NCBI RefSeq assembly: GCF_026212465.1
Contig: NC_080056.1
Coordinates: 9,176,179-9,240,178, forward strand
Direction of reading: 5' to 3'
DNA length: 64,000 nucleotides
From: Amaranthus tricolor
Taxonomy: Eukaryota; Streptophyta; Magnoliopsida; Caryophyllales; Amaranthaceae
Shown: one piece after another, positions 1-56,144 of the stretch
Numbering within the stretch: position 1 is the stretch's first letter
Layout: each line of letters starts with the position of its first letter
Translations under genes and position numbers: made by a program
The notes under the pieces: generated by a model
The model's database searches: none
What the model was told of the DNA's origin: nothing
Seen by the model: the letters and a program-made list of their open reading frames with translations, nothing else

Positions 1-2425
1 TTGACTTTGAATTTGAATTTGACCAACCTAAGTGGTAACTTCATTTATTTAATATAATTCTTAATCATAACGTTTAATTCACCTTTACGTCTTTATATGT
101 TCATTACTTAATTTTTACACATTAAATTTTATTTATAACTTTATTTTAATAGTTCACTAAATTCACACTAATAGCTTAATATTTAATTAATAGTCTCCAA
201 ATTAGTATTTTCCACAAGTAGCTACTAAAATCTATTTCTCTTGAAATAAGTTCCCAAAATCAAAATTTCCAACTTTAAAATAAATAAAACTTTATTCTCC
301 TCACAAAATCAAACATTCTAATTAAAATTCAAGTTAAACTGCAACCTTTGGATAAGTTTTCAAAATTCAACAAGTTTACCAAAAAAAATAATTATTTCAA
401 GTTTGGAAAAACAAGTAAACTTATTAGATTCGCGAAAATCAACATTCTAGTTATAAAACAAATAAAACTTATAATTTCACAAAAAATCAATATTTCACAC
501 ATAGTTTAAGAACAAGTTTACTAAAAATACTTTTACATCTTTTTATATAAATTTTGGTCAAATAGTTAGCAGATAAAATATTATTTTGTACTAAATAATT
601 AAATGTCACAAAAGTTATTATTATTTTTTTTTAATTATGAAATCTCATATATTCAAGAAAATCACTTCAATATTTAATAACTTATAAAGCTTTTTCAAAA
701 ATAACTTTTAAGATTTTATTTTAATATTATCACAAAATAGATTATAATAATATAAAAAAGAATAAATCAAACTCTTTTTCTTTTAATATGATAATGGTCG
801 AATGGCCTATGAGTATTTCGGGGCCTTTTTTTTCACTAATAAAACAACTTCATTTAATTTATTATAGTAAATTCAAGATTTAAATAATTAACATAATCAC
901 TAAAAAAAACAAATAAAAAAATAAAAACTTTACACAATAACTTAGAAATTTACTATAACTTTAAGGATAAACTTAAATCTCATAATAAAGTATAATAACA
1001 ATATTCTTAATATAATCATAATTAGTAAAATACGTTCATAAAATAACTTACTACCTTACAAACTAGTTTGAAGGCTAACATAAACATATTAATACAAAAT
1101 TCTAACATAAAATACATTCTTAAATATAATAACATTTCTAATGTAACACATAACTCATAAATATACTAGTACTAGTTTATAACATGAATCATGCTTAATA
1201 TCACTAGAATATAATTTTGCACTCAACTTCCTAAACTTGTTCAAAGACTATTAGATTAACATACTAAATATACTTTTAGCATACACATAATATAATCTTG
1301 ATCATAATTTCATTAAACTAACTTCCACTAAAATATATCAACATATTTCATACTTTGCATATTATAAAGTAAATATAATGTAAAATTCCACAAAAAGAGT
1401 AGGGTAAGAAGTTATACCATACTAACACCAAGGATTAGTACTAAGTACTAATTAGAAAAATAATAAGAAATAAGATCCTCCAAGATAGATAATAATGCTC
1501 CAAAGATAATTAATCCCAACTCCCAAAATAATGATGATGATTTAAGCTAAGTAAAGAGTGTTCTAAGCTCCATGTTCTTTAATTTCTTCAATTAATAAAG
1601 GTATTAATGTAGTAAGATTTTAATGAAGTGAAAATATAAGAAAGAATGTTAGAAAGATTTGATGATGGTGGTGTAAGTGATCTCATGGCTAAGGGGGTAT
1701 TTATAATGAGTTTGGGCAACTTTGTAGTTCATTAGATTGTATGAAAAAGAGTGTTAGGAGTTGTAATATCCTTTCTTTAAAAAAAAAAGAATAATAATAA
1801 TAATGAATAAATTTCAGAAAAAAAAAATTAAAAAAAAAATAAAAAACAATAAAAACATAACCCACCATTAACAATAACCTCCCATACCATTAACAATAAC
1901 CTTCCACACCATTAACAATAACTTCCCACACCATTAACAATAACTTCCCACTCTTCTTCCCACTCTTCCCACTAAGCCTCATAACTAACCTCACTTACCT
2001 CTTATAAATCAAATCAATTATCCTTAATTTCATTCACATTATTACTCACACTTCCTTCTTCTCTTACAAATTATTTCCTCCATCTTCCATTTGCTTAAAA
2101 TTCAGTCAAGTAAACGCAAGATTTTGATATTTAAGGTATGAAATTTCATCTCTTTATAATATTGTTCTACCAATTTCAATTCAAATTACACATTTTGCAT
2201 TTGAAAAAAAAAAAGAAAAAAAATATTCATGACCTTAGTTTTCCGGCGATACGGCAGTCACCGGGATACCACCGGCGTGAGACGGCGGCCACCGAAGCTA
2301 CTGCCGGCCGGCACCTTCTCCTTCTTCTTTCTCCCTTCCTCCTTCTCTCTCCTCCTTCCCTTTCTTTTTCTGTTTCGTGAGTTACTGGAACTCACCTTCT
2401 TTTTTTTTTATATATAATAATTATG

Positions 2426-2466
<41 letters not shown>

Positions 2467-4673
2467 CCTTAACCCTTATAAATTTCTAAATCTTATAATA
2501 AAATGAGTTAACTATTTTAAATCCCTGCTCTTCTATACTACTCTTAAAATCTTAAATTACATATTTAAAATTATTCTTTCTAAATAAAGTATACAAAATG
2601 AAAAAGAGTCTTTTAATTTATTTATTTCGATGGGTTGATCGGGGTATTAAATTGAGATATATTATTTTCTCGTGTAGACAGCGGATTCGTAGACAGAAAT
2701 TATTAGGAGCGTACGTTGTCTAGAATCGTGTGACAAGGTAATTCTCAATGTCCATCTAATTAGGACTATCCCGTTAGTATTATGTGCTAAGTGATAATTA
2801 ATGTGTTTAAATTGATGCATGATTTGATATGACATTATTTTATATGATGTTATGCTTAATATATTCTCAAATTATATTTACTATTATTTTTTTTTGTCAA
2901 ACTTGAATTTATAATTTTTATTTCGATAAAATTTATATTATTATTTTGATAACGAAATTGGATACGATTTAAATTGGAAGAGAAATATTTATGATATTAA
3001 TTCCTATTGCCACCAATTGATGTTAGAATGGTGATTTGGAAAATGAGATTTCAGTTGGATATTCCTGAGATATATATTTATTGGGAAAAATTTATGATCA
3101 TAAAATATAATGTATAATGCATGTTTGATTTTAAGTTTGTGTGCTCGCAACTAATTATTAAAATATATTAAATCACGTAAAGTGTAACACGAGGGAAATG
3201 AAGCTCTTATATTTGTTGTGATCCAAGTATAAGGGTGATGAACAGGTTGCCCTGTTTGGTTAGTATAGCTGCCGACAAGTATTATTATTTCTGATACTTG
3301 ATATGATGTTTGGTCTTCCTTCTATTTGTTGTGATCCAAGTAGAAGGGGTGTGCACACTAGGGTTCCCTGAGACTACTCTGCTGGCCTTGAATTATTTGG
3401 GGTGACGACCTCTTGTTGAAGTAGGTATAGGGGTAAAGCCTCGGCCTACTGGCGTTCTTGTTCCCTCAAATTTAAAATTGATTATGTGTTTGTCATTATT
3501 AATTATCAAATTAATAAATTGGTTTATGTGATAATATATACATTATTTTCTCAAACTGTTTTCTATTAAACTCAGCTATATGTTATTTTCTAAAATTATT
3601 TTCAATTTGATTATATTGTATTTTCTTAAATCAGTTTCAAACTTAATCGTCTTACGGGATGGAGTTGGAATTACTCAATTTTTCTGATTTTGGGAGTTTT
3701 TCCCTTGTTTTTCTTGCATTCTTATGTTACAGGTTATTGATTGCATGGGAATCGCGGAGTGAGGATCACTTAGAAATATAGCTTTTACTAGAGTCGTATT
3801 TCAGTTTTAATTTTTACCTTAGGTTGTTTAAATTTTATATGGACACAAATTACGTTTCAGTCTTTTCCTATGTTGTAAGATCCTTTGTTGGATTTAAAAT
3901 TATTAAGTTATTTCTTAGTTGTTAAGCCTTACATTTATTTTATTAGAAATAGATGTGGCGGTAACACTCCCATGAGTAGGTTTTGGCTCATGTTTTTCAT
4001 TAAAGGTGTTTTCAAAAGTTCGACCTATTCTGAGGGTGTTACAGGAGTATAGAAGAAGATTAACTTGTGTAAGTGATTTAGAGTGTGTAAGTGAATGTGT
4101 AAGAGTTGGAGTGTAGAAGAAGGCTTGTGTAAGGAAATGGTGATAGCTTGTGTAAGTGATGAACATCATCATGGGTTACCATAGAAAGGATTTTGGTTCA
4201 TTAAAATTTTGTTCTAATATGTACAAGTGAATATACTTTAAAATAATGGGTAAATTTGATCATGAAAATATGTAGTTTATTTAAAATTTTGCTTAAACTG
4301 TACTTAATGTTAATAAAAATACGACTCATTTTTATGTATAAAATAATTATATCAAAATTATAAGGTTAAATAATAAGTAGTAATGTTAATTTAAGGAAGA
4401 AAGTTAAAAAGTAACGTTTTACAAAATCGTGAATATAATAATAAAAACTTACTTTTCGTACTATAAAATAATAAAATAATATTTTAGTGCTTATAAAAAG
4501 ATTTTAAACAAAATACTATTTTAAAGTTTAATATTTGAAAGAAATTACAAAATCGGAAAAGATTTAGGAATTAAAGATGGTTTGAAATGGATAATCAAAG
4601 GATTAGAGATTTGATTTGAAAATTCAGAATAATTAATCGAAAGATTAATATTAAGAATTTTGAGTCTGTTACA
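1..4673 (-). mobile_element. LTR-like sequence nested in the MULE (A1 copy, cut by window edge)
   Basis: Read on the minus strand this starts TGTAACAGACTC at 4673, a typical plant LTR start, and runs leftwards out of the window. A minus-strand TATA-like box (TATAAATACCCCC) lies near 1697-1710, as in an LTR promoter. It interrupts the MULE transposase reading frame. No gag or pol frame is visible, so it is probably a solo or non-autonomous LTR; a younger solo LTR sits inside it (1762..4043). In the A2 copy the whole insertion is visible (28008..34178). No clear target-site duplication was found. Confidence 0.65.
1762..4043 (+). mobile_element. Solo LTR, chromovirus (Tekay)-like, 2.28 kb
   Basis: The sequence starts TGTAATATCC and ends GGGTGTTACA and is flanked by a perfect 5-bp target duplication, ggagt, at 1757-1761 and 4044-4048. 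It has a TATA-like box near 2010, a GC-rich leader near 2240-2320, an ATT microsatellite (2425-2466), and the 'atgtggcggtaac' tail before the 3' end that I associate with plant Tekay/Del LTRs. No internal coding region or second LTR is present, so it is a solo LTR left by recombination. Short reading frames inside it are not genes. The family name is from memory. Confidence 0.8.
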
Positions 4674-5945
4674 CCTATTATGCCAAGGTCATTGCTCTTC
4701 ACATGATTCATGGTAGTGCATTAAAGCAATACCAAAGGGTTTGGGACTATGCCGCTGCAGTTAGGAAATACCTAGTAGGTTCATCTACTTTTGTTGTTGT
4801 GAGTGATATAGAAAGGCCCCCAGCTACATTCCAAAGAATGTACATCTGTTTGCAGCCTTGTAAGGAGGGGTTTATACAAGGTTGTATGCACATAATTGGA
4901 GTGGATGGTTACCACTTGAAGGGGTTTATACAAGGTTATAAACTCTATTCTTTTTTGGTATACAATAATCAATAACAATGTATTAATCCCACTTAAATAA
5001 TGCAGGACAAATTCAATGACCACATGCAAGCCATTAAGATGTTGTCCGTTGATGTTTTCAAGTATTTGGACAACATCCCTGTTCAAAGGTGGAGTAGGCA
5101 TGCCTTCAACCCCAAGAGCAAGTCAGCCATGCTGTTGAACAATTGTTGTGAGTCATTCAATTCGGTTTTGAGGGAGTGCAGAAACAAACCAATATTGAGC
5201 ATGATGGAGTGGATAAGAAGATATGTCATGGCAAGGGCTTTTAACAAAAGGGAGGGATGTAGGAATTATCAAGGGTCAATCATGCCAGCTGCTTTGAAGG
5301 TGCTCAAAAGTGCCCAAGATATGGCCAAGAACTGCTTTGAGACAATTTCTGACATTGACTTGTTTGAGGTGGATCATGATGGAGATAGATGGGTGGTTGA
5401 CTTGAAAAAGCATTCATGTGGTTGTTTCAGGTGGGATTTGACAGGAATCCCTTGTTGTCATGCATTCAAATGCATCATGGCATTCAGGGGCAATCCTGAA
5501 ATGTATGTGCACAAGGCATACAGTAAGGAGATGTATGCCTTAGCGTATGCACCTATTTTCCAACCCATGCCTGGAATGAAGCAATGGGATTCTACAGACC
5601 ATCCCAAACCTAACCCCCCTGGTATTAGAAAGCTCCCTGGCAGACCATCACAAAAAAAAAAGAATCAAAGAGAAGGGTGAAGGGGAAGTTGAACCAGAAC
5701 CTCCAGTGCTGAGAAAGAGGAAGCCCAATGCATGCAGTAACTGTGGAGGTCTAGGCCACAATAAGAGCAAGTGCAAGAACCCACCTGCACCCCCTAAACC
5801 TCCAGCAAAAAGAGGAAGGCCAATGGGTGATGGTGTTCCAAAACAAGCAATACAGAAGAAAAGGGGAGAAACGAGCCAATGTCAAGAAGAGGTCAACACC
5901 AACTCTTCACAACCAGTAGACGCATCTCAAACATATCACACATGA
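4674..5945 (+). pseudogene. MULE transposase, C-terminal part (broken), A1 copy
   Basis: Segment one (about 4675-4925) encodes a MULE region ending in the IGVDGYHLKG motif, which carries the first catalytic Asp of the DDE fold. The frame then fails, and the rest of the catalytic core, including the second Asp and the Glu, is missing. Segment two resumes after a splice-acceptor-like TGCAG (exon from about 5006) with NNCCESFNS and a SWIM zinc finger (CGC...CCH) near residues 140-157 of that frame. An A10 run at 5651-5660 shifts the frame by one base; the other frame continues into a CCHC zinc knuckle (CSNCGGLGHNKSKC) and stops at 5945. With the central deletion, the frameshift and the LTR insertion upstream, this copy cannot make active transposase. 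Confidence 0.88.
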
Positions 5946-6302
5946 ATTTAATAGCTTTGATGTTAGTTTGTGAAAAATTATTAGTGTTTATTAGTTAGTC
6001 AATGACTTTAGTATCTCTGATGTAGCAAATGAACCTTATGTATGACTTCAGGATGTAGCTAATGAACCTTTTGTAGTTTCATGTTATGGATAATATGCAT
6101 TATGAAATTTGGTTCAATACTTCAGCTGCACATTATAAAATGGAGGCAAAAACAAAAACAACTAAGAAATTTGGTTCAATAATTAAGGTGTACATTATGA
6201 TATGGAGGCAAACACAAAAACGACCAATAAGTTTGGTTCAATAATTCAACTGTACATTTTGAAATTGAGGCAAACACAAAAACAACCAACCAAACAACCA
6301 AA

Positions 6303-6785
6303 CTACTCCATAATCTTAAATAGAGTTCCTAAAAATAAAACAACCAAAAGAGCCAAATATTGAGATTTGCTGAAGTTTTTGGCCAGCTTCAACCTCCCAA
6401 CATGCCAACCGTCAAATCCGTCACCAGTAACCTTTGCAGCAGCCTTCGCCTCCTCTAATTCGAACTCAGCAACAAGACATGATTTCTCATACTCCGACCT
6501 ACTCAACCGACTCCTCAGCACATTCACTTCATTCCTCAGTTCCTTATTGGCCTCCACCAACACAATAATAGTTACCCTTTGCCACTCCACTTGATCGGCA
6601 TCAATCCACCTGAAGAACGAGCAACCCCTTCTTCCACTTTCAATGTCATATAATTTACAAGCCATGAACCTACGCCCAAGATTTTTGGGGGTCCAAGACC
6701 TCATCATCGCAATTTTCATCCCACAGTAGCATCTAGTAGGTTGTGAGTTTTCAATGGCACGAGAAGAACCACTAGAAGAAGACAT
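6303..6785 (-). CDS. GRF-type zinc-finger protein carried in the MULE, A1 copy
   Basis: A 160-residue frame, read leftwards. I start at the Met at 6785 (MSSSSGSSRA); an in-frame extension to 6833 looks like leader. Near residues 19-60 is a GRF zinc finger: CYCG, a W-T-N-G-R-F spacing, then C and CSFFRWID. A leucine/glutamate-rich, probably coiled-coil stretch follows (about 70-115), then a hydrophobic C-terminal segment (LALLVVLFLGTLF), a possible membrane anchor. Small plant proteins of this build (the At4g04775-like group) are common, many inside transposons. It lies inside the MULE, convergent with the transposase, so it is probably an accessory gene of the element. Its role is unknown. 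The frame is intact and identical in the A2 copy. Confidence 0.75.
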   Translation of the reverse strand: MSSSSGSSRAIENSQPTRCYCGMKIAMMRSWTPKNLGRRFMACKLYDIESGRRGCSFFRWIDADQVEWQRVTIIVLVEANKELRNEVNVLRSRLSRSEYEKSCLVAEFELEEAKAAAKVTGDGFDGWHVGRLKLAKNFSKSQYLALLVVLFLGTLFKIME

Positions 6786-7073
6786 ATTAAACCAAACAAA
6801 AACAACAGAGCACCATTGTAAACAGAACATCAAAGCATCAACTTTTCATAAAAAATGGAGAAAACTTCTACAACAACGCACATACCTACGCAATTTCAGA
6901 TGAAAACCCTAGAAATTGAACTTCAAAAGCACAGAGAGAGAGAAAGAGAAGAGGTGAAGTGATTTGAAATGGGAGTTGAGGGTGTAAATGGAGTATTTAT
7001 TGAGGTTGAAATGAAAGGAGCGTGGATTAAGAACAATTTGCAATCACGCGCACGTATTTGGAGGTCAACAGGC

Positions 7074-7233
7074 ATAGTCAACGCCGGAAATTACACAAAA
7101 GCCACCGGAAATTGAATTAAGGTGTCTATTTTAAAAAAAAGTCTCTTAAAAGGTGTTTTTTTACAAAAAAATTTATAAAATGTGTTTCTTTACAAAAAAG
7201 GGGTTTTAAAAGGTGTTTCTTTGCAAATTTCCC
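7074..7233 (-). repeat. MULE right terminal inverted repeat, A1 copy
   Basis: About 160 bp, the inverse of 26531..26689: both contain GGCGTTGACTAT at the inner edge and GGGAAATTTGCAAAG at the outer edge. Long TIRs and a 9-bp target duplication are typical of MULEs. Confidence 0.9.
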
Positions 7234-7242
7234 TTATTTTTA

Positions 7243-7646
7243 TTATCTAAAATTTACTAACCTGAAATTTAAAATGTTGAGAATCATTAAGGAAAATAAT
7301 TTATAAAAAAAGATGTGTTTTAAAATATTTAAAGAAGAGAATAATCTTAAAAATGAAAATAATTTATAACTTGAAATTAATTTCAATCAAAAAACAACAG
7401 TTTAGTGGAAAGAGTGACCTCCAAATTTTTGTACAACATACTCATGCATTTTATCAAGCCTTCATGGATCCAAAAAAACTACTTATTGCAATGGCATATC
7501 CCAATTTCAATAAGTTATCTTTAAGAAACAAGTTTATTTTGGCTTTTGTACTATCATATTCGGTCGGTTAATGCAGGGGCGAATTCAATGGGGTGTCAAC
7601 GATGTCAATTGACGTCACTTAAATTTCAGGAAAAATTATTCTATAA
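7243..7646. other. AT-rich flank of the MULE; no gene seen
   Basis: Unique flanking DNA that is also found at 56728..57095 next to the unoccupied target site. A 72-codon frame here shows no recognisable domain and is not preserved in the 57-kb copy, so I do not call it a gene. Confidence 0.6.
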
Positions 7647-8005
7647 GAAAAATTTGCAAAGAAACACCTTATAAAACCAGTTTTTTGTAAAAAACACTTT
7701 TAAAATTTTTTTTTTGTAAAAAAAACACCTTTTAAGAGAATTTTTATTAAAAAAAAAACACCTTAAATCAGTTTTCAGTGACTTTTGTCAACTTTCAGGC
7801 GTTGACTATGCCATTTGAGCTCAAAAGTCAATGCCTGAAAGTTGACAAATGGCATAGTCAATGTCTGAAAGTTGACAAAAGTCACTGAAAACTGATTTAA
7901 GGTGTTTTTTTAATAAAAAGTCTCTTAAAAGGTGTTTTTTACAAAAAAATTTTAAAAGGTGTTTTTTTTACAAAATTGATTTTGTAAGGTGTTTCTTTGC
8001 AAATT
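7647..8005. mobile_element. Foldback MITE derived from the MULE termini, A1 copy
   Basis: A 359-bp element whose two halves are inverse copies of the MULE TIR: outer ends AATTTGCAAAGAAACACC / GGTGTTTCTTTGCAAATT, inner GTTGACTATGCC palindromic segments. It is flanked by a 9-bp direct repeat, attctataa (7638-7646 and 8006-8014). It has no coding capacity and would have been mobilised by a MULE transposase. Confidence 0.85.
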
Positions 8006-8095
8006 ATTCTATAATAGAACATGATAATTCAAAAGAAATGAAAACAGAAATGAAACAAATATTCTTCAAACACATATCAAAAATACAAACAAAAA

Positions 8096-8205
8096 AGCTA
8101 CATTAGTTCTCTGACGATTAGACAGGAACCCTACCGATCCATTTCTATTGTTTCGAACAGTTGAGATTATTATGATATCCTCTTCACCGCCTTGAAACCC
8201 ATCAA
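8096..8205 (-). pseudogene. Captured fragment of SF1 helicase exon 5, antisense, A1 copy
   Basis: The reverse complement of these 110 bp matches helicase exon 5 at 22352-22461 with three differences, all G to A on the gene's sense strand. It covers the motif V to VI region: DGFQGGEED through RQRTNVA. It lies between two MULE-derived foldback MITEs, the setting in which Pack-MULE-like gene capture occurs. It has no start codon, splice sites or complete domain, so it is not a gene. A transcript through the region from the left would be antisense to helicase mRNA. Confidence 0.93.
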
Positions 8206-8721
8206 CTAAGGGGCGGAACCAGAAATACAAATAAGTGATGTCGATAATTAAAAAAATACAATTAAAAATGATAAATAAATTGCATTCGACAACGATTAAT
8301 TAAGATAATTGTTCAGACCGAGTTTTCATATGTAAAAATGACATATAATATAATCATTGAATAAATTTTAAACTGTAAATACAATCATTAATCAAAATTC
8401 CTAATTAGCTAAACAAATAAAAAACTCTAATTTTTTAAAGGCCTAAAATACCTAAGAAGAGAATTAAATCCTAATTTACCTAAATAGATAAAAAAAATAA
8501 AAAGCCCTAATTTATCAATTTTTTAAAAACCCAAATTTACCTTAAAAACTAAGCAGAGAAGATGAATTGGGGACAAGGGAAGAGGAAAAAAGAACTAAAG
8601 AAGAGAAGTAGATGCTTGATGAGCAGTGAAAAGAACTACAGCTTTACCAAATTTTTTGAGTAGATGATTGGGGACAAGGGAATGGAAAAAAATTATCTAT
8701 GCCCCGAAAAATAGAAATCTT

Positions 8722-9001
8722 TAAAGAGAATTTTTATTAAAAAAAACACCTTAAATCAGTTTTCGGTGACTTTTGTCAACTTTCAGGCGTTGACTATGCC
8801 ATTTGAGCTCAAAAGTCAACGCTTGAAAGTTGACAAATGGCATAGTCAACGCCTGAAAGTTGACAAAATTCACCGGAAACTAATTAAAGGTTTTTTTTTT
8901 TTAATAAAAAGTCTCTTAAAAGGTGTTTTTTTACAAAACAAATTTTAAAATGTGTTTTTTTTTTACAAAAAATGGTTTTATAAGGTGTTTCTTTGCAAAT
9001 T
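8722..9001. mobile_element. Second foldback MITE, left-truncated, A1 copy
   Basis: The same family as 7647..8005 (GTTGACTATGCC palindrome, right end GGTGTTTCTTTGCAAATT) but without the outermost left TIR. The stretch 8210-8720 between the captured exon and this element is AT-rich with no recognised gene; it reappears inverted and direct at 58384..59191. Confidence 0.8.
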
Positions 9002-9139
9002 ATTCTCTATTATAGATTAAATGGAATCTTGCATTTTTGTCCTTAATTTCTTATTAAAATTAAGTGTACAATCTACTAGCTTTTTTGTTTGACATAAATG
9101 GTTTTTATTGTGATTTGGGTGTTTAATTTAGCCTTTTTA

Positions 9140-10260
9140 AGGTAAGTCATCACTTTAGCTATAATTAATTATTTTAAAGTCATCACATACAACTGTAAAA
9201 CCAGTACTTATTAACTGTAGGTAATTAATTTAACAATGTAAGTCATCATTGTAAGGTGATAAGTCATCACTTTAAGGTTATAAGTAATCATAAAGGTCAT
9301 CACATAGAACCCTAAAATGAATACTATAAGTAGTAGATAATTAATTTAACAGTGCAAGTCATCACTTTGGAGTGGTAACTCATCACTTTAAAGTTATAAG
9401 TAGTCACTTTAAGGTGATCGATCACATGCAACTTTAAATTGAGAACTTATAAGCAGTAGGTAATTAATTTAACAATGTAAGTCATTATTTTAAAATGATA
9501 AATCATTACTTTAGGACTATAAGTAATCACTTTAAGATCATTACATATAATCTTAAAATGAGTACTTATGAGTAGAAGACAATCAATTTAACAATGCAAG
9601 TTCTCACTTTAAAATGTTAAGTCATCACTTTAAGGCTATACGTAATCATTTTAAGGTCATCGCATACAACCTAAAAATGAGTACTTATAAGTCGTAGGTA
9701 ATTAATTTAACAATGTAAGTGTAACATCCCGGCCTTTTGGACCGCTGGTGACTACTCATGGAGACTGTAGACTAGCCCCAGAAACCAACACAAGTCTTTT
9801 CAGCGCACTTTGGCCTCACTCGTGCGCACCCGGAAGAACTTCCCAGGAGGTCACCCATCCTAAGATTGATCTCCACCAAGCACGCTTAACTGTGGAGTTC
9901 TTAGCAAATAGGCTCCCTAGAAAAGAAGATGCACCTTGTTGATATGAGTAGTCTATCAATCGTTTTTCAAGCTAAATTTAGGGTATTACAGTAAGTCATA
10001 AGATGATAAGTGATCACTTTAAGGATATAAATTATCACTTTAAGAACATTAGTGATAGAATTTAATTTTATTTGATATTATAAGTCATCACTTTTAAGTT
10101 ATAAGTTATCATTTTAAGGGTATAAGTGATCAATTTAAAAATATAAGTGATTCCTTTAAAATTATCACTAACAACTTTAAAATGATTACTTATAATAGTA
10201 TAAGTAATCACTCTATTAAAAAATGAGAGAAGAAAAAAAATGGTATAAAATATTGGCTGA
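9140..10260. repeat. Degenerate tandem repeat, about 120-bp period, A1 copy
   Basis: About five successive units of 99-125 bp (starting near 9140, 9239, 9355, 9478 and 9596), each with AAGTCATCACTTTAAGG-like cores, a GAGTACTTATAAG segment and TAGGTAATTAATTTAACAATG at the end. More diverged units follow after a Cassandra insertion (9991-10260). Reading frames in it are artefacts. Confidence 0.85.
9720..9990 (-). mobile_element. Cassandra solo LTR with 5S rRNA-like core, A1 copy
   Basis: On the minus strand it starts TGTAATACCC and ends GGGATGTTACA, flanked by a perfect 5-bp duplication gtaag (9715-9719 and 9991-9995). Its centre (about 9833-9905, minus strand) matches plant 5S rRNA, including GTTAAGCGTGCTTGG and GGATGGGTGACCTCCTGG, the internal-promoter region. 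Cassandra, a TRIM retrotransposon, is defined by such 5S-like LTRs. It is not a functional 5S gene: only part of 5S is present and the element interrupts a tandem repeat. Confidence 0.93.
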
Positions 10261-10320
10261 GGTGGATGCAATTCCATAATTTACAACATTGGCTTGGGGG
10301 CTTCTAATGCTCATTATCAA

Positions 10321-13300
10321 ATGAATTTATGTGATGCCGATGCGCTCAGAATGCCTTGCTTGTCATCCAGGGATGTTTCATGTCTTCTTAAACCAAACAT
10401 GCGATTTGTGTGCGCAGCGCCTCATATAGAATCGACTTCTGGTATGGAGAATGAATTGGATTCTCTGCAAGGGGGTTCTCGTGGAGATATCTTACCAAGC
10501 TCTGCCGCTTACTCCAATACGTCATCTTTTTTAGATGAACATTTGGTAGGATCGCAGGAAAGATTTGCTGGCTCTCTTGGTTGGTCAGCAGGGTTCTCCA
10601 TTGAGAACACAGACGAACAAAACAGCCAACAAGCACAAGTGCTCAAATACTCTAATGACGAGTCCTACAAACAAATGAGTGGCAAGAAAATAGGCGTTGT
10701 TGGTGAACAGAATATACTAAGCCCTCTGGAAACTTCTACTGGCCGTGCTAAAAAGAGAAGGAAGATTTCTGATGATTTTGAGTCTATCAAATATCTGCAT
10801 TTGGAAGGTAGAAGAATCTATCAGGAAGCAGAAAAAAAGCTTTTTTCTTTACACGATAGTTTAATCAGACCTATTATGAATGAGCAGATAGAGAAGGAAC
10901 GTTTTTCACAGCCTGTCAGTAAATCTAATACCGGTGCCAATCCTAGAATGCCTTACATTCAAAATAAGCAATTACTTGAACCAGAGGTAGTCCTTCAGCA
11001 AGCTGGTGAATCTAAGGTGCAGATGCAAGTGGCACCTGGTCTAAGTGACAAAAGGGGAAGCTCCCAGCAATTACATGTTGGAAGAGGCCAAAGCACACAC
11101 AATCAAGATGCTGTGAGTAGCGTTCTGGAAGTGATGAATGGGGATTACATGAAACTACTTGATTTGGATGATGAAGTTGCTGAAGAACAATTCCGAATGG
11201 TGATGGAAAGGCCTCTGTCTCCAATCCTTCCCGAGTTTGGTATTCTGGAGTTTAGTCAAAAGGTTCAAGCGCAGACTGTATCTGAAAATATTGAAGCTGT
11301 GTATCAACGTGGTTTTTCAGTACAAAATAAAAACCAACTGTACTTTGTTTTGTTTTCTGATATGGAGGATATTGGCAGTGTAACAAGGATATTTTGTGCT
11401 ACTAGAACCTGCGTAGATCAATGCTGCCTGTTTTTTCAAACAAATTGGGCAGTTCAAGATATACTAGGGGTCTTACTATTGGAGAACGAACTGACTCCCA
11501 GGTAATTTTTTTTGTTGAGGATGAACAAATAAAATGAAACCTCTTAATACTTAAAAGCCTTTGATTTAGTTACCGTGCTGCTGCCTTCATATTTGAAAAA
11601 GAAGGTTTATGCAAAAAGCGTGATTCAAGAAATTGTTTTCTCCATTTTTTTCTATTTCATCTTGTTCCTAACGGTGTCCTTAGCTAACTTTTTTTTACTT
11701 TATTATTTTTTTTGCATTTTCAGGGAAAAAGCCTGTGTTTTATTTTCTCTTCTGCTACTTAATTTTTCCGCTATATCATCGAACAAGTCTGTGACCTTCC
11801 AAGTCCAAGAGCAAATGGTTACTTTGTCTGCACAGATGCACGCAGGTATGATACTGTGTCATCATCCTCGAAATACAGTCTCCTTTTATATTGTTATCAT
11901 GATGTACCAGTTTTCTTTTCTGCACCTTCACTTTGCTTTTGTTGCTCACTATTTGATGAACATATATAATGCAGTGTTAAACTCTGATACCAGAGAAATG
12001 CTTAGAAAAATCTGTAACCTTCATGATGTACTTGCATTGGGTGAAGAATTTGTACTGAACAGAAAAGTTTTATCCGATGTTGACGTGAGCGGCGAACTGC
12101 TTGTTGATTGTGGCTCAAGTATTGGGATTGTACATCAAGGGGAGAATACTGTTTTGTGGCCTAAGATAGCTCCAACTGATCTGGTTGTTACTGGGAGCAG
12201 CATATTGGCTTCTATCTATAAAGCAGTTGGTCATCTTGGCTCTTTATGTGAATTTTCACTCAAGTTGCTGCACATGGGCAGAGCTGATTATTCTTTGGCG
12301 TTGTCAATTCTTCATAATTTTGCTTGCTTATGTGGTGAAGATTATTTTACCAACAGCAATTATTCTTCGGTTATGAAAGTTGTTAAATCTGTGGTGGCGT
12401 TCATGGAGGCTTCTTTGTCCAAGGGTCCCATTAAAGATCTCCAAGCAGGGGATATTACTTGGCATCATTTCACAACTTGTGTCAGATGCCCATTCAAAGA
12501 AGGCTCTGTTACTCTTGATGCTGTTTCTTCAGAGCTGTTGGACGAGCTACGAAGACATCTTGTCCCTCAAATTCCAGGTGCAACGGCTCATTCATTGAAC
12601 AGCAAAGCTGTTTCTTGCCTTCTAAGTGATGTCCTGTCTTCTTTGGAACTCATTGCATCAATTATGGTATTGTTCTCTGTCAGCCATTAGTAATTCCTTG
12701 TTCTTTTTCCAAACCTATCAGGCTAGTGTCTAATTAATTTTTAAATTTGCAGTGCTGGGACTGGGTATGCGAGAACATTGTACAAAAGCTATTTCACATG
12801 TTGGAATTAAGTTGTCAGAATGAAGTCTTTTCTACTGCCCTTGTGGTGCTTCTCGGTTATATCGGGAGGTGAGGTTTTCTTTGGCTATAATTTCTGGCTG
12901 ATTTCACATTCACCTTTTCAGGATATATATCAATATGTGCAGGACCTCTCATTGGTCAACCCCACTCCCCCCGAAATAATTTTTATAGATGTAATTGGAA
13001 CACTGTAAAAATATGTTGAAATTATTATGCCCGCCTTACTGGAATTTGTAACACTTAGCTGTTCAAAGGAAGATGATACTTTTCCTTCGCTTCTGACCTC
13101 GTTGACACATTATTGTTTCAGACTGGGAGTTGAAGCACGTGGCTATAATGACGCTGGAGTTGAGGGTATAAGACACCATTTGTTAGGTCTTTTATGTCAG
13201 GCTACCACATCGAAGTGTGATTCAGCTGTACCAATGGCCATCCTTTATGGAGTGACTGGGCTTTGTCCGAAAGGTCATGAGATTTTTCAGAAGGTTTATG

Positions 13301-13443
13301 ATGTAATTCATTCATCCAAAGATTGGCATTCTGCATCATCTCCATCTGATGATATTGTAAGCAAATTTCTTTCATCTCTTAGCAGCAAACAAGCAACCTC
13401 CTTGGCTAGTCTATTGAGTTTTGATTCAGGACTAGCTGCATAG
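10321..13443 (+). CDS. EMB1611: EMB1611/MEE22-like protein, C-terminal part, A1 copy
   Basis: Proposed exons: 10321-11501, 11724-11845, 11975-12666, 12753-12868 and 13122-13443, all with GT-AG borders and consistent phases, giving about 810 residues. Landmarks I recall from plant EMB1611/MEE22 proteins are LVGSQER, a KKRRK basic patch (about residues 144-148, probable nuclear signal), GDYMKLLDLD, ATRTCVDQC, EKACVLFSLLLLNFS and SLNSKAVSCLLSDVLSSLE. In Arabidopsis the gene is needed for embryo and shoot-meristem development. Full family members are well over 1,000 residues with a long N-terminal coiled coil; that part is absent and repeats lie directly upstream, so this is N-terminally truncated. 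The start at 10321 is only the first in-frame ATG. The last intron could be shorter, since 13027-13121 is open in frame. No disabling mutation is seen, but I cannot tell whether it is expressed. Confidence 0.75.
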
Positions 13444-15123
13444 TTCATGTTGCCTACATGTTGTAAGTAGGGCGATTTTGCATTTTTACTGGTAGTTTTA
13501 TCTTTTACGTGTAATCTACGGTATAAGTTATAGAATGAGATCTCTTGATTTTGTAACTGATCGAGTTTTATTTTGACTAGATGTTAGGTTCTAGCTTGAG
13601 CAAATAGGCTCCCGAAAGAATTGACATAAAGATGTCAGATCAAGATTTTTAACATTGTATGGTTTTTCGAACATGCTCCTTGTTTTTGTTCCGAGGGATG
13701 CTTGGTATAATGCTATACAATGAAAAAGAGTAAATATGAGAACTTCTGATTCCATTGTTAGTTTTATTACTCTTAACGGTCTGTTTGGTTATTGATATTA
13801 AATATTAGGAATGACTTGCTACTTGTTTTATTTACTTTTTGGTTACTATTTATTAATCACTTTTAAATTGTGTCTTATTATTGATAAAGTTAAAATATAG
13901 TTAAGTGAAATCTTATTTAATTCGTCTCAACATAAAGATTACTGTTATCAATTTTTTATAATTTTTCATTTTTCACAATTAGAAATATTAAGGATTAAAA
14001 TATTACCTTAATAAGTACAAATAAGGTAGACAAGACAAGTAGGTTGAATAGGAGAGTGTAAGTAATCTGAATTAACAGTGTGGAGAATACATGATATATT
14101 AGCCCAACTATTTTAGAATTTCTTGCATAGTAGGTATATTTTCTTTCACTTATATTTTCTCCGTTTTTAAATACTTGCAACATTTTGGTTATGAGCACTA
14201 TTTATTATTCAAGTTTATTATATATATTACGGTTAATGTGTAAGTAAAAATATAGTCTAGTGGATTCTTGTTTGAATCGTCTAATCGCATACTTTCATAA
14301 TAATTTTTTATAATTTTTAGATGTGTATAATTCAATATATAAATGAATAAAATAATATTTTAGATTGCGTAAAAAGTGAAATATAGCAAATATAATATAA
14401 AAGAAGTATTTTAAAAGGTTCATTTTATATTTGATTCAATTACAATTACGATAGTTTAAAAATAAAAATTTCAAAGAGAATTAAATTTTGCGTCACTGAT
14501 GGTGACTACTATTTTTCTTGGTGCGACCTATGTTTGATTTTTATTTACACTCCCGACCTAAATAACAAAAAAAGTAAAAGCTTCAAAACAATTAAAAATT
14601 AATTCTTAAAAAATGAGGGAGCATCAAAGGAAATTTACTCGCAGGATCCTTTTTTGCCGACACTGCGCCATGACTAGTAATACAAAATGAACAATTGATA
14701 ATCACATCATGAAAAAGTGGTAAACAAAACAACTAATTAAAGGAGAGGAAATCAATGCAAGCATGAAGCTTCAATAAGTAAAGCTAAAATTTAAAGGAAG
14801 AAATAGTTAAAGCAAGCTAAAATTAACTAAAGGAGAAGAAATCAAGCATGAAGCTTCAATAATTAAAAGGTAGAAAATATCTTACGGTAAGATTTTTTCT
14901 ATTTAGTTAGCCTAATGTACATTTACAGTGTTAAAGTAATCACTTGCAATTTTCAAATGATCACTTATTCAGTTACCATCTTAAAGTGACCACTTTGAAA
15001 AGTAAGCTGATTTTATTGATCCATCTCATGGTGAAACGAACTCATACAATATTTAACTGTTAGAAGTAAAATTCAAAGGGTAAGAATTAAGAAATAGTTA
15101 AACCGAGAGATTCAAATCTTATA
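13444..15123. other. 3' flank and spacer with MITE relics; no gene
   Basis: After the stop codon comes about 370 bp of shared A-block sequence, then AT-rich DNA unique to this copy. At 13812-14060 and 14140-14420 are diverged relatives of the Stowaway-like MITE at 15124 (shared 'aaaatatagt..agtg' and 'ttttataattttt' blocks). A roughly 85-bp imperfect direct repeat (AGCATGAAGCTTCAATAA) lies at 14745-14880. I see no coding sequence. Confidence 0.6.
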
Positions 15124-18900: not shown

Positions 18901-21900
18901 TTTATTCTACTTTTTATTTTCCTACATCATTTTCGGTCTTCCTCACCCTCTTTTTAAGTCTAATGAGTTCCAACTTTCTATCGTTCTTATCGGTTCGCTA
19001 ATGTTCATCACTTTTTTGTTGAAGTAACTACTTCATGTAATCTGTCTTCCTCCGACTCAAACTAAACTCTCGTGACTCCTACACATGTGTCCCTCATTCT
19101 AACTTAGCATTCACCCCTGTGTGATCTCATTTACCAACACAATGCTAACAGCAAACAACCAATGGTAGCATCTGGTCGAAAAGCCTCTGGTGAACAACTA
19201 AGAGCTAATTGCAATACACCAGCTAATTAAGAGTGTTTTTTTAGCTCTGCTAATTGTTTTTAGTAACTGTTAAGTAATCTACTAGTTGCTAAAATTTGGA
19301 TATTTGTTGACAAAGTATCATTTCTAATTCATAGTGTTTATTTCTCAATTGTTTCTCAGGTGGATGATGGTTATTGTACCCTTTGCATCTCTGAAGAAAA
19401 CTTCAATGTTACACAAACAGAAGTGTTTGACCTTATTAGTTCATTTGGATTAGACAAATCTCAAACAGAAGCAGTTTTAAGCAGCATTTCCATGACTAAA
19501 TGCACACACCAGCAATACAATTCAAAGCTAATTTGGGGTCCACCAGGAACTGGGAAGACCAAGACATTAGCTTCATTACTTTTTGTACTACTAAAACTCA
19601 ACTACTGTAGGACACTAACTTGTGCACCCACCAATGTAGCAGTGATTCAGGTTGCAAAAAGACTAGTAACACTCTTCTTAGAGTCCTTGGCTTATGATAC
19701 TTATGGGTTAGGAGACATAGTCCTAGTCGGAAATGAAAAAAGAATGAAGATCGATGATGATTTTGAGCTAGTCGACATATTTCTCAAATATCGTGTGAAG
19801 CTTATTGAAGAGTGTATCTTACCGTTAACTGGTTGGAAGACTAGTTTGGAGTCTATGATTTCATTACTCGAAGACCCTAAGGCGAAGCATGATACTTACT
19901 TAGTACAGGTTGAGAAAGAGGATAACATGAATGAAGATTCATCATCATCAAACCCAGTTTATTCTGCTCATAAAAACTATGGTCAGGGTCTGGGGAGGGA
20001 AGAAAAACGGAAACTTATACCAATAAAGAAGAAGAAAAATAAGATGAAGGAAAAAAAAAAGGGCCAAGCAAGTAATGATAAGGCGGATATAAAAACCGAT
20101 GAATTTTCGACATTTGATGAGTTTGTGAGGAAGAGTTTCGTTTCTTTAGCAAATCGTTTAGTGTTTTGTGCAGAGAATTTGTATACTCACTTACCGACAT
20201 CAAGTTTACCACTTCGTGTGGCTAAACAGATGATTGAATTAGTTGGTATGCTTAATACCCTGGTAGAAAATGCGCGAAAAAATAGTTGTAATTTCACTGA
20301 ACAGGTTATGATGAATAGAGAAGGATTGATGGGTATATTGAATTTACTTCATAAGAGATTTCCTAAGCCCAAGATTAAGGGAAGTGTTAAGGATTTTTGC
20401 TTGAATAATGCGCGATTGATATTCTGCACTGCTTCAGGCGCGATTAAAATAGGTTCAGATGTTGAAACAGTGATAATAGATGAAGCAGCACAGCTCAAAG
20501 AATGCGAGTCAGCGATTCCTTTACAGATTTTTGGTCTGAAAACTGTGATTCTCATAGGGGATGATCGGCAACTCCCAGCAATGGTTCGGAGCAAGGTCAG
20601 ATAATGTCTCCCTACATAATGTTTGCATCTTTTTAGCATTTAAAGTAGAAGTGTTCAACGGGGAGGGTCGACCCAATGGGTGATATTAGGCCGTGACAAA
20701 TTGTCAAATAATCTCACTGTAGCCCACTCGTGTGGACACAGAAAACCCGTGGGCTCGGGCCCACAAACCCACGAGTCAAGAGCGTTTACTTGCACATACA
20801 CTTAGTGAGATTCACTATTTCCCAAAACTATATAGTAGTAGGAAGATTAGCTCACCCAATATATATGCAAAGTCAACAACCCACTATTTTATTGATGTGG
20901 GATCTTGTCTCACGTGTGAAGTATATCCAACAGGTCAAGAATCGGGTCACATTTTAACGGTTCATTAGTGGGCGTTGGTGTAAAGGGTCGGGCAGGGTCG
21001 GATAGTTATAAGAATTAATTGCGGAAAAAAATTTACCACTTTTTTATATTCTTAAATGATATTATTATATACATAAGTGGATCGACCAAACGGGTTATAA
21101 AGTATAATAAAAAAAACTATTTTATCAACTTTTAAAATGGGTCAAAGTGGGTCGGATTTAAACGGACTTTGACCCGCTGCGACCTGTTTAATATTTGACA
21201 TGACTCGACCCGACCCTGCCCATTTAAATTTTGACCGCCCTGCCCCGTTGAACACCTCTCATTTAAAGTATGAAAATCTTAAGGTTCTTTTTTTTTTTAT
21301 ATAGGTTTTAGGAAAGATGAACTTCGGAAGGAGTTTATTTCAACGGCTGGCAGGGTTAGGGAAAGAAAAGCATCTTTTGAACATTCAGTATCGGATGCAC
21401 CCTTCTATCAGCTTGTTTCCGAATAAAGAATTTTATCAGAACAAGATTGTAAATGCACCCAATGTCGAAGGAAGAAACTATGTTAAGAATTATCTCAAAG
21501 GGAGCATGTTTGGATCTTATTCTTTCGTACATGTGACTGATGGAAAGGAGAATTTCAAGAAAGGGCATAGTCCTAGAAATTTTAAGGAGGCAAAGGTTAT
21601 TGATCAGATCATTGCAAAGCTTTTCAAAGGTATGGAACTGAAACTTCTTTTTATTAGTATGAATGTTCTAAAGAATGGAAAATATCCTTATTGTACAAGA
21701 ATCAACATTATGATACTTCAAAGAACCAACTCAACTAAAAGCTTAAGTTGGTGATTGAGGCGCCATGATATGCTATATACTTAAATACGTCCCCTTGTAC
21801 GAAAGTCCTTTAGTCTAGAAGTGTAGATGTAACGCATTACTCTTTTGTCAAGGAACCAACTCAACTAAAAGTTTAAAGGTCGAAGCCCTATGATATGTTA

Positions 21901-24731
21901 TATATTCTAACACGTTCCCTTACATGAGAGTCCTTTAGGCTAAAAGTGTGGATGCAACTTAGACCTCCTCATACCTAGTGCGAAATATTCCATTTGAATT
22001 TGAGGGGTAGTTGAGATTTGAACATGTGACCTATGGTCACGTTGACTTTTGATATCATATCAAGAAACCAACTCAACCAAAAGCTTAAGCTAATGGTTAA
22101 GGAGGCCCTATAATATGTTATATACTCTAACAACTCCTCATACCCGGTGCTGAATATATTTTATACTCTAGAATATTTGGAGCCTTTTATTATAACATTT
22201 CTTGTATGTGCAGAACATTATTGCATCACTAAACAGAAGGTGAGTGTGGGAGTACTATCGCCATATAAGGGTCAAGTAGGTTTGCTTCAAGAAAAACTGG
22301 AGAAGAAATACACGAAACATAAGGAAAAGTTTTGCATCAACATTCGATCAATTGATGGGTTTCAAGGCGGTGAAGAGGATATCATAATAATCTCAACTGT
22401 TCGAAGCAATGGAAATGGATCGGTAGGGTTCCTGTCTGATCGTCAGAGAACTAATGTAGCTCTCACCAGGGCGAGGTATTAATCAGTATGCCTTAACAAT
22501 GTTTTCGTTTCTTGGAAGATTACGAACAATAACAACAGTTTCTGTTATGTCGATGTAAAATTTAGGTACTGTCTTTGGATAGTTGGAAGTGGAAGTACTT
22601 TAGGTAACAGCTCTTCAGTGTGGAAAAACCTTATACGCGATGCAAAAAATCGTGGTTGCTTCTATTATGCTGATGAGATCGTTAATCTTAATCACGAAAC
22701 ACCAGTTGATAAACTTGATTTCTTCAGCCACCTTAAACTCGAGGAAGCAAGATGGAAGGTACTTATTTCATCACTACTCTAAACTAGAGCTGTTAATTCA
22801 ACGGAGCAGGTCGACCCAATTGGTCAAGGATCAGGTCACATTTTAACGGGTCAAGTCAATAACGGGCCTTGATGCAAAGGGTCGGGCCGGATAATTATAA
22901 TAATTAATTGCCGGAAAAAATTTATCATTTTTTTTATATATTTTAAAACGATATTACTATTATATACATTTGACCTGGCCGGATATTACTATCATTTTAA
23001 AATTATAATAAAAAAATTATTTTATTAACTTTTTAAAAACGGGTCAAAATGGATCGGGTTTAAACGGACTTTAACCTGGCTCAACCCGTTTAACATTTGA
23101 CATGACCCGTCCCATTTAAATTTTGACCCACCCCGCCCCGACCTGGCACCTCTACTCTAAACCATAGATGGCTAGCATTTATTCCATCACTAGTCTGAAT
23201 CTCTGATCTTTATGCAGGTTACCTTTAGCAATGAGTTTAAACAATCTATATCAAGCATAAAGAGTGTCAAGGCTCAGAAACGCGTACAAAATCTGCTGCG
23301 CAAGATTGCTGATGGCTGGCGGCAGTCCATCACTGATGATGGCGCGACCCATGAGTTGTTGGTGATTTACAAGGTTGATAAAACGCTTAATCTCGCTTGG
23401 ACAGTCGACATTCTTGAGGAAGAATCAAGTTATATACAAGTCATCAAGGTTTGGGATGTTTTACCAGATTCCAAGGTTCCTGATCTTGCAAAGAATCTAA
23501 GTATTCTGTTTGAAGGATATAGTGTTAACTTTATTAATCTGTGCAAGTACAAATCTTATGAAGGGTATGGATGAAAATTAATTATTTCCTAGAAGAATGT
23601 GCAATTATGCAGATGTAGTTATGTTTTAAGGTAATATGTTTTCTGTGTTACAGGAACTTGGTTGTGCCTAAGTCATGGAAGCTTCATTCCTCTTGTGAAG
23701 CTCCACTTACAACTGATCTTGTAGATGATTGTTTGTCTTACCAATTTGCTGCCATGAATGTAAAAGACAATCCAGGAAAACCAAGTTCAAGCGTTAGGTA
23801 TGTTATTACGTTTCAGGAAATATTGTTGAAAATAATCGAACATTTCACTTATTCGCTGCGAATAATCTCATCTATTGATTATTTATAATAATCTCATCTC
23901 TAATATGTATTTGCTCCCAACATATCTGAAGTGGGAGAGGAGGGGAGGGGTTGTAGTGGTCAAGACCCACTGGGTTTGCTGGGAGCAAATATATATCAAA
24001 ATGTTGTATTATTAGATAATAATCAAAAGTGGGATTACTCGCGGCCGTTGAGTAAAAGGGTAAATTATTCTCGATAATTTTTCCTACATTTTATTATTAT
24101 TCAGGTTTTTTTATGAATTTTGTATCAATTAGTCATGGAATCAACTTTATCAAAAGTTTAAGCTGATGGTTGAAGATCCAAAATATGTTATAATATTGAG
24201 AGTCCTTTTGACTAGAAGGGTAGATGCACCACCAAAAGCTTAAGTTGATGGTTCAACCATAGGACATATTATACACTATCAAGCCCTCATACAGTATTTC
24301 TTTTGGCTAGAAGTGTGGATGCGACACATATGATACTAGATGATTTTAAAGGCCCTGGTATATATTATACTATATAATAATAAGTCACCTTACACGAAAG
24401 CGCTTTGGATTAGAATTATGGATTTACCACATGCCCTTATTTACAACTTGAAATAAGGAATGGATGAGATTCAAATTCGTAACCTTTTTATCACGTTGGT
24501 TTCAGATACTAAGCCAACAAATCAACTCAACCAAAAGCTTAAGCTGATAGTTGAAAACTAAGCTTAAACCAATAAACTTTTGTGAAAAATTAAATTATCT
24601 AACATCATTTTATTTGTCATAATTGTTTCTTAAGTCTTTGCTAACATGCATTTTTTTTTCTTACCCTTGTTTTATGTCCTCTCGTTCGCAGAAAGAATTG
24701 TGTTGCAGTATGGAAACCAATACAACGCTAG
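15697..24731 (+). CDS. SF1 RNA/DNA helicase, SEN1/UPF1-like, copy 1
   Basis: Nine exons: 15697-15816, 17592-18134, 19360-20595, 21305-21629, 22214-22475, 22566-22758, 23218-23564, 23654-23797 and 24692-24731. All borders are GT-AG, phases join, and the spliced frame is 1069 residues. Motifs: Walker A GPPGTGKT (281-288), DEAA (595-598), GDDRQLP (621-627), QYRMHPS (661-667), DGFQGGEED (789-797) and [12 protein letters not shown] (818-829). The N-terminus (LVFSW-type WSIKDVLN exon, then an [15 protein letters not shown] domain) and the C-terminal VKVWDVLP-type domain match the plant subgroup once called 'tRNA-splicing endonuclease positive effector-related' (At1g65780/At1g65810 type). It should unwind nucleic acid using ATP, probably in RNA metabolism; the substrate is unknown. 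A low-complexity Lys-rich linker (about 410-460) separates motifs Ia and II. Introns carry several MITEs but the frame is intact. Confidence 0.92.
15849..15913. repeat. (TA)n microsatellite in helicase intron 1, copy 1
   Basis: About 32 TA units 30 bp after exon 1. A longer run lies at the same place in copy 2 (46818..46896), so it is a length-variable marker. Confidence 0.95.
17112..17465 (+). mobile_element. Dispersed repeat inserted in intron 1 of copy 1 only
   Basis: Copy 2 lacks this stretch (compare 48085-48145). It starts with TCATCATCGTCATCATACTC and contains AACTATGGTCAGGGTCTGG. The same 75-90 bp also lies inside helicase exon 3 as coding sequence (19937-20030 and 50448-50540). The 'ggtcagggtctgg(g)gaggg' signature is common in plant dispersed repeats. 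The exact borders and the element class are unclear. Confidence 0.6.
20646..21260. mobile_element. hAT-type MITE in helicase intron 3, copy 1
   Basis: The ends TAGAAGTGTTCAACGGGG and CCCCGTTGAACACCTCTC are inverted repeats, and an 8-bp duplication atttaaag flanks it (20638-20645 and 21261-21268). The body has GGGTCGACC-like GC-rich subtermini. A TRIM solo LTR is nested inside. The same family sits in intron 6. Confidence 0.88.
20684..20932 (-). mobile_element. Solo LTR of a 249-bp-LTR TRIM, nested in the intron 3 MITE
   Basis: Exactly 249 bp, as are both LTRs of the complete element at 43622..44175. Minus-strand start TGTTGGATAT, end GGCCTAATA. Flanks are ggtga (20679-20683) and ggtca (20933-20937), a 5-bp duplication with one mismatch. 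In copy 2 the first 25 bp remain near 51199 and the rest is deleted, so the insertion predates the H1/H2 duplication. Confidence 0.9.
21715..22150. repeat. Dispersed repeat copies in intron 4, copy 1
   Basis: Three relatives of the motif CCAACTCAACTAAAAGCTTA followed by 'tggttgaggcgccatgatatgctatatact' type sequence, near 21725, 21855 and 22069. Similar copies lie in intron 8 (24200-24560) and near 44630 and 44760. They look like fragments of an LTR-type repeat. Confidence 0.6.
22785..23154. mobile_element. hAT-type MITE in helicase intron 6, copy 1
   Basis: The ends TAGAGCTGTTAATTCAACGG and GACCTGGCACCTCTA are imperfect inverted repeats; a perfect 8-bp duplication ctctaaac lies at 22777-22784 and 23155-23162. 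It belongs to the same family as the intron 3 element (shared GGGTCAAA.TGG.TCGG and TTTAACATTTGACATGAC blocks). Confidence 0.9.
23798..24691. other. Helicase intron 8, copy 1: repeat-filled
   Basis: The last intron. It holds a short inverted pair (ATTTGCTCCCAACATAT near 23910 and GCTGGGAGCAAATATAT near 23979) and three dispersed-repeat pieces with AAAAGCTTAAG between 24150 and 24560. No separate gene is seen. Confidence 0.6.
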
Positions 24732-26510: not shown

Positions 26511-26530
26511 AAAATATATGTTTATTTTTA

Positions 26531-26689
26531 GGGAAATTTGCAAAGAAACACCTTTTAAAACCTTTTTTTTTTGTAAAAAAACACCTTTTATAATCTTTTT
26601 TGTAAAAAACCTTTTAAGAGACTTTTTTTTAAAATAGATACCTTAATTCAATTTTCGGTGGCTTTTGTGTAATTTCTGGCGTTGACTAT
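26531..26689 (+). repeat. MULE left terminal inverted repeat
   Basis: Starts GGGAAATTTGCAAAGAAACA and ends in GGCGTTGACTAT, inverse to 36579..36738. The MULE-derived foldback MITEs share this sequence. Confidence 0.92.
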
Positions 26690-27038
26690 AGTATATCAGT
26701 TGCATAATACGCGAGTGATTGCAAACGCAGGGAAGTATAATGAGACACAATACTTCGTGAGTTTCTACTGCCTCTTCCTCAACTCCATCTCCTTCCCTCC
26801 ACATTTCCCTTCACTTTGTCTGGTTTCTCATTTGTCACCATTGTTGATTGTGACCGAAGATTCGTAGCGATTTTACTTCCTCTCAACAGTAAAAGGTAAG
26901 GTTTTTTTTCCCATTAAAGTTAATGTCTTTTTGGTGTCAATTGCATTGTTAATTGAATTGTTCAATTGAATTGTTCAATTGCTACGGTTTGTTTTTGTGG
27001 AGTTCTGAAGTTAGGGTTTGTAATTGGTAATTGCGCAG

Positions 27039-31933: not shown

Positions 31934-31971
<38 letters not shown>

Positions 31972-35450: not shown

Positions 35451-35807
35451 ATTTAATAGCTTTGATGTTAGTTTGTGAAAAATTATTAGTGTTTATTAGT
35501 TAGTCAATGACTTTAGTATCTCTGATGTAGCAAATGAACCTTATGTATGACTTCAGGATGTAGCTAATGAACCTTTTGTAGTTTCATGTTATGGATAATA
35601 TGCATTATGAAATTTGGTTCAATACTTCAGCTGCACATTATAAAATGGAGGCAAAAACAAAAACAACTAAGAAATTTGGTTCAATAATTAAGGTGTACAT
35701 TATGATATGGAGGCAAACACAAAAACGACCAATAAGTTTGGTTCAATAATTCAACTGTACATTTTGAAATTGAGGCAAACACAAAAACAACCAACCAAAC
35801 AACCAAA

Positions 35808-37510: not shown

Positions 37511-37600
37511 ATTCTATAATAGAACATGATAATTCAAAAGAAATGAAAACAGAAATGAAACAAATATTCTTCAAACACATATCAAAAATACAAACAAAAA

Positions 37601-39765: not shown

Positions 39766-39825
39766 GGTGGATGCAATTCCATAATTTACAACATTGGCTT
39801 GGGGGCTTCTAATGCTCATTATCAA

Positions 39826-56136: not shown

Positions 56137-56144
56137 CCTGTAGG

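Follow-up and report, generated by a model that had tools for sequence, protein, structure and literature searches.

How a 110 bp piece of a helicase exon came to lie in antisense orientation 14 kb from its parent gene, and whether it acts on that gene, is the question raised by a 64,000 nt stretch of the Amaranthus tricolor genome (C10:9176179–9240178; hereafter, the window). The initial annotation had placed the piece in two copies, A1 (8096–8205) and A2 (37601–37710), and both were confirmed. Self-comparison of the window showed them to be identical at 110/110 positions, and each matches the exon of the two helicase genes (H1 and H2) on the opposite strand at 107 of 110 positions (E ~1e-49), well above chance expectation. 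The borders between fragment and gene match are sharp on both sides, the flanking sequences are unlike the gene, and the match is exactly 110 bp. The A1 fragment and its parent exon are 14 kb apart within one repeated unit. A third, shortened copy in the region A3, which lies in sense orientation, had been overlooked. Coordinates of the features discussed are given in Table 1.

Table 1. Positions and strands of the fragment copies, their parent exons and the neighbouring elements (window coordinates, except where C10 is given).
Feature	Position	Strand	Remarks
hAT-like element, left end	7574–7635	+	CAGGGGCG...; matches ends in genome loci L047 and L035
Foldback MITE 1	7646–8009	.	arms like MULE terminal repeats
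Right flank of MITE insertion in repeat Z	8010–8095	+	starts with target duplication TATAATAGA (8010–8018); 8085–8095 unmatched in relatives
Helicase exon fragment A1	8096–8205	-	antisense to + strand helicase genes; 107/110 to 22352–22461
hAT-like element, right-end part	8209–8724	-	inverted relative to A3 copy; last bases TTTAA (8720–8724) could belong to MITE 2
Foldback MITE 2	8725–9005	.	left arm shortened at joint with hAT-like part
Left flank of same MITE insertion in repeat Z	9006–9145	-	inverted; duplication at 9006–9014
Donor exon piece, gene H1	22352–22461	+	AAA_12; motif V–VI label from the initial annotation
MULE-like element, 10.2 kb	26531–36738	+	9 bp duplication TTATTTTTA (26522–26530, 36739–36747); A1 copy ends at 7233
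Fragment copy in unit A2	37601–37710	-	110/110 to A1 fragment
Donor exon piece, gene H2	52603–52712	+	same 110 bp as H1, no difference
hAT-like element, A3 copy	57061–58897	+	both ends in proper inverted order; further sequence inside
Short fragment copy in A3	58901–58965	+ (sense)	65 bp; 65/65 to A1, opposite strand
Inverted repeat arm 2, A3	58962–59191	+	perfect 230 bp with 58382–58611; joint with fragment shares 4 bases
Full fragments	C10: 9154760, 9184274, 9213779, 10679126		genome search
65 bp fragment copy	C10: 9235079		genome search
Helicase gene copies, 97% to fragment	C10: 9139508, 9169022, 9198530, 9228781, 10693386		

The donor exon belongs to a predicted plant SEN1/MAGATAMA-3-like helicase. 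The open reading frame that contains it (22114–22482) matches AAA_12 (Pfam PF13087, E = 1.4e-29), and an upstream frame (19267–20604) matches AAA_11. When the helicase stretches were joined and compared with proteins, the best match was LOC130826185 of Amaranthus tricolor, at 98% over 78% of the query. The description of two intact helicase genes therefore holds for H1 as far as its core exon stretches go, these being open frames that match homologues and an annotated protein of the same species. A 237 bp repeat at 61843–62078 matches 20696–20932, located between helicase exons. Neither this repeat nor any of the further weak matches of A1 and A3 to the gene region (E from 3e-6 to 5e-3, one of them a 32 bp match inside an exon stretch) was accepted as a helicase piece.

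The whole 519.85 Mb genome was searched with the 110 bp fragment, giving counts that are lower bounds. At least 11 places match: five gene copies, four full fragments, one shortened copy of 65 bp, and one distant match of 79% on C1. C10:9127459–9219496 is a tandem array of three 29.5 kb helicase units that are 99.9% alike, and within the window positions 1–13813 and 29509–43318, both parts of such units, are 99.92% identical, so that the duplication of the units is recent. The H2 unit adjoins the array as a paralogue at 90–96%, i.e., it is 4–10% different in five aligned stretches, and on this divergence H2 is an older paralogue than the array units. The near identity of A1 and A2 beside the difference between H1 and H2 is explained by this arrangement, a longer array of near-identical units next to an older paralogous one. 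A 36.1 kb block (C10:10670347–10706488), 1.5 Mb away, is 99.99% identical to the array but has N runs at both ends, which makes its genomic place insecure; it may be a real dispersed duplication or a misplaced contig.

All four full fragments found are in array units or in this near-identical block, and none of the matches found genome-wide places a fragment outside the helicase array and the N-bounded block. Had it been an ordinary dispersed repeat, as the initial annotation allowed, it should have recurred elsewhere; instead its matches are confined to the array, one block and the single 79% match. This restricted distribution points to a single origin, and the fragment most likely arose once and then multiplied by segmental duplication of the 29.5 kb unit. 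The A1 and A2 copies, real as both are, consequently count as one observation and not as two independent ones. The array's left edge starts inside a stretch (10261–13443) of coding-like + strand open reading frames, two of which were given to Pfam and had no match.

The immediate neighbour of the fragment on one side is a transposon end. The fragment adjoins the outer side of a terminus that recurs throughout the genome: the right-end part of the element has at least 50 matches in the genome, drawn from the 40 candidates scored out of 70, and many of them begin at 8209–8211. Both ends of the family were recognised in two of the 12 loci scanned (L041 and L047). They carry short terminal inverted repeats, the ends being CAGGGGCGG / CCGCCCC, and an 8 bp target duplication is exact in L041 and has one mismatch in L047, each being the best register within 14–18 bases. 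hAT elements produce 8 bp target duplications, and the non-autonomous element at 8209–8724 and 57061–58897 is classed on these features as hAT-like. In A3, the 65 bp fragment copy starts three bases (TAG) past the right end of the element. The eight bases preceding the A1 element match AGTTGATG, which follows the A3 element, at 6/8, and those of A3 itself match it at 5/8. Both values are the highest among five registers, and they make microhomology at the outer joints no more than a possibility.

On the other side the fragment meets repeat Z, and beyond both neighbours lie the two foldback MITEs. The MITE arms are 82–91% alike to both ends of the MULE-like element over 79–177 bp, so their description as MULE-derived is a fair one, and the initial annotation was right that such foldbacks flank the fragment. 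MULEs produce 9 bp target duplications, and the 9 bp sequence TATAATAGA is found at both outer ends. These two copies do not mark two elements. The sequence at 8010–8084 has three relatives elsewhere in the genome (L049, L050 and L051), and when the two Z flanks are joined they align across the joint in all three: L050 (183/205) and L051 (171/204) are ungapped at the joint, and in L049 (162/185) a gap of five bases falls at the target site. Positions 8010–8084 and 9006–9145 were therefore formerly contiguous, and the fragment today sits between the ends of a single MITE insertion, which stand in opposite order. A degenerate tandem repeat with a period of about 117 bp and copies that are 77–84% alike (9143–9720) lies beside repeat Z.

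The segment 8010–8724 is taken as the inverted one because the hAT-like element of A3 is complete in the other orientation, and the flank from 9006 onward is the same in both. Since the fragment lies in this inverted segment and the A3 copy is sense, the antisense orientation in A1 would be a by-product of the inversion. The arms of the MITEs are mutually 92–98% alike, which leaves the pair of arms that would have recombined ambiguous. A palindrome formed by one fold-back at MITE 1 is not favoured, because the two arms of that MITE agree at 94% of aligned bases (85% with gaps counted), whereas A1 and A3 are 100% identical in the hAT-like part. Capture of the exon piece by the foldbacks, as had been proposed, does not agree with this arrangement: the next neighbours of the fragment are repeat Z and the hAT-like terminus, and what the two MITEs delimit is an inverted segment and not a capturing element.

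The MULE-like element is named for its SWIM zinc finger, long terminal repeats and 9 bp duplication. In the A1 copy the SWIM zinc finger lies in 4997–5680, and a separate open reading frame on the other strand encodes a GRF zinc finger. Pfam searches of selected open reading frames of the element gave no transposase-domain match, and 27024–27779 had no match of any kind. The empty site is preserved in A3 (56719–56727), so the element inserted after the A units and A3 had separated.

A3 is a mosaic in which the hAT-like element keeps its native order and a part of the inverted block is present as well. It has perfect inverted arms of 230 bp (58382–58611 and 58962–59191) around 350 bp, and the matching blocks overlap at 58962–58965. 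These arms consist of hAT-like sequence, and a hairpin RNA formed from them would accordingly match the hAT-like family and not the helicase. Identity between A1 and A3 is uneven along the locus: the left flank agrees at 329/337 positions and the left end at 31/37 (six differences), the fragment with the hAT-like part at 354/354 and 230/230, MITE 2 at 289/290, and the sequence further rightwards at 144/146 and then 144/158. The contrast between no difference in 584 bp and eight in the 337 bp of the left flank (Fisher p = 3e-4) argues for later copying between units.

The arrangement is probably best explained by break repair, with the fragment being filler DNA that was laid down beside a hAT-like end, was later inverted and duplicated, and likely has no function. 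The 110 bp would have been copied as a short templated patch from a helicase gene of the array into a break beside the right end of the hAT-like element. A subsequent rearrangement with ends in or near the foldback MITEs, perhaps by recombination between their arms, would have flipped the segment with the fragment and left it antisense in A1 and A2, and the segmental duplication of about 29.5 kb would then have multiplied it together with the helicase genes. The fragment has the hallmarks of a filler: it is short, it duplicates sequence present elsewhere, and its joints are sharp. Speaking against this reading, none of the genome loci examined represents the site before capture without the fragment, and the mosaic structure of A3 calls for further copying between units.

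Comparable events are described from other systems. At the rice transposon excisions reported in PMC4423477, fillers are 1–123 bp long with a mean of 13 bp. The amaranth fragment shares with these the short foreign copy at the edge of a DNA transposon and its 110 bp fall inside that range, but it is far longer than the mean and has also been inverted and multiplied. For animals, PMC8277862 describes how gaps are filled from nearby donors with microhomology, and the resemblance to the Pack-TIR and Pack-MULE gap filling treated there is that a gene piece matching a parent 14 kb away lies at terminal-inverted-repeat transposons. The A1 fragment differs from that account (PMC8277862) in that no single transposon encloses it between its ends, and no copies of the fragment were found at other loci. 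The inverted segment ending at elements with long inverted repeats recalls the inversions by ectopic recombination described for Galileo in Drosophila; the present one is about 1 kb and not chromosomal, involves another element family, and has an ambiguous crossover.

The main structural rival to a filler is the relic of a tandem helicase copy, into which the hAT-like element inserted and of which little but 110 bp survived deletion. We regard this as unlikely, although several observations agree with it. In A3, where the hAT-like order is native, the fragment is oriented like the tandem genes; the helicase bases TTGATG occupy the position expected for the right target duplication of the element; and the sequence left of the element is similar to the part of the gene directly preceding the fragment (16/21 aligned bases, with one gap), a score reached by 61 of 5000 random windows. 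Against a relic, no other strong helicase exon match was found in A1 or A3 (the weakest listed was 32 bp at 84%, E = 0.005), and the left flank matches the gene no better than shuffled sequences do, which scored as well in 102 of 200 cases for the long region and 144 of 200 for the short one. The left flank was for this reason not accepted as decayed helicase, its last 22 bases alone being suggestive.

Carriage by a transposon, i.e., capture inside a MULE or hAT element and delivery by transposition, is improbable in spite of the MULE-like foldbacks and hAT-like ends on either side. The fragment lies outside the hAT-like terminus, and the outer MITE ends stem from one insertion in repeat Z that was split by the inversion, not from a transposon surrounding the fragment. 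It does not sit, as a Pack-MULE cargo would, between the terminal repeats of one element with matching duplications, the TATAATAGA pair belonging to a single split MITE insertion. Spread by transposition, which is not required of single-copy Pack-MULE cases, was likewise not seen, no copy having been found beyond the array and the N-bounded block.

A functional role had been proposed, in which the antisense fragment seeds small RNAs against the nearby helicase genes and bears the mark of methylation. The three differences from the gene are as had been stated, gene G to fragment A at each of 22406, 22411 and 22438. Their direction was assessed from homologues, for which 120 proteins were listed and 105 were readable, 15 that did not fit the motif pattern being left out. 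At 22438 the gene has Asp and the fragment Asn, and the homologues have Asn in 96, Asp in seven, Thr in one and Ser in one of the 105; a smaller set gave Asn in five of eight readable among 120. The paralogue on C1 has the fragment's base at this site and the gene's base at 22406 and 22411. By these comparisons the gene carries the derived base at 22438. At 22406 the homologues have Cys (80), Ser (23), Gly (1) and Asn (1) of 105, and at 22411 Gly in 80, the fragment's Arg in five and other residues in 20, so that the fragment looks derived at these two and the proposed direction would fit two of the three sites.

Methylated DNA decays first at CpG. All four CpGs of the fragment (eight cytosines) are intact, and the changes at 22406 and 22411 are in CHH context on the strand where C became T. 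The reading of the differences as deamination of silenced DNA fails on these grounds together with the opposite polarity of 22438; two transitions of one kind are, as judged from context and homologues, no footprint of methylation. All three changes alter the protein, and coding constraint on the fragment is therefore not suggested.

With this supposed footprint of silencing removed, it is very improbable that the fragment seeds small RNAs against the helicase genes. Pairing itself would be feasible: 43 of its 90 21-mers and 34 of its 87 24-mers match the gene exactly, so small RNAs, if made, could pair with it, and targeting from the fragment is to that extent possible. It is antisense in A1 and A2, and near it lie foldback MITEs and a MULE-like element on the + strand. 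The closest precedent is Mu killer of maize, where silencing is proposed to be fed by short antisense transcripts with about 250 complementary bases (PMC3440606). The A3 copy, on the other hand, is sense, and no inverted partner turned up within about 5 kb of the fragment in A1 or A3, the nearest useful complement being the gene, 14 kb away. Searches of 3100–13200 and 54000–63900 gave nothing beyond matches of about 15 bases (E ≥ 0.79), and none of the 25 inverted-repeat pairs listed out of 36 covers the fragment. The locus resembles Mu killer, as described in PMC3440606, in being a rearranged, partly inverted, Mutator-related region able to yield antisense RNA. In Mu killer, however, about 1.3 kb of the transposase gene are duplicated in inverted form and transcripts have been measured (PMC3440606), whereas the 110 bp target piece lies outside any hairpin arm found; an inverted repeat over the target sequence, as expected for silencing of the Mu killer type, was not found in the intervals searched.

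Mis-joining of repeated units and of the folded A3 during assembly is highly improbable as a source of the arrangement. In its favour, the units are 99.9% identical and the block 1.5 Mb away is N-bounded on both sides, but C10:9070001–9260000 has no N runs, the H2 unit is 4–10% different in five aligned stretches, and A3 has differences of its own. If it is the same assembly, the published one for A. tricolor is moreover described as built with HiFi and ultra-long reads (PMC9847342). Also highly improbable is that the array has a built-in repressor, in which one antisense 110 bp copy of a conserved helicase exon per 29.5 kb unit, set between foldback MITEs and read through from the upstream MULE-like element, would yield small RNAs that scale the array's expression to the number of copies.

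Were small RNAs to be detected, the fragment would turn into a self-repressor of its gene array, linked to dosage. The locus is also a warning that a methylation history should not be inferred from a few base changes that have not been polarised. On the favoured reading, that of a filler later inverted and duplicated, the case shows how a seemingly designed 'antisense gene piece' may arise by break repair, a MITE-ended inversion and segmental duplication.
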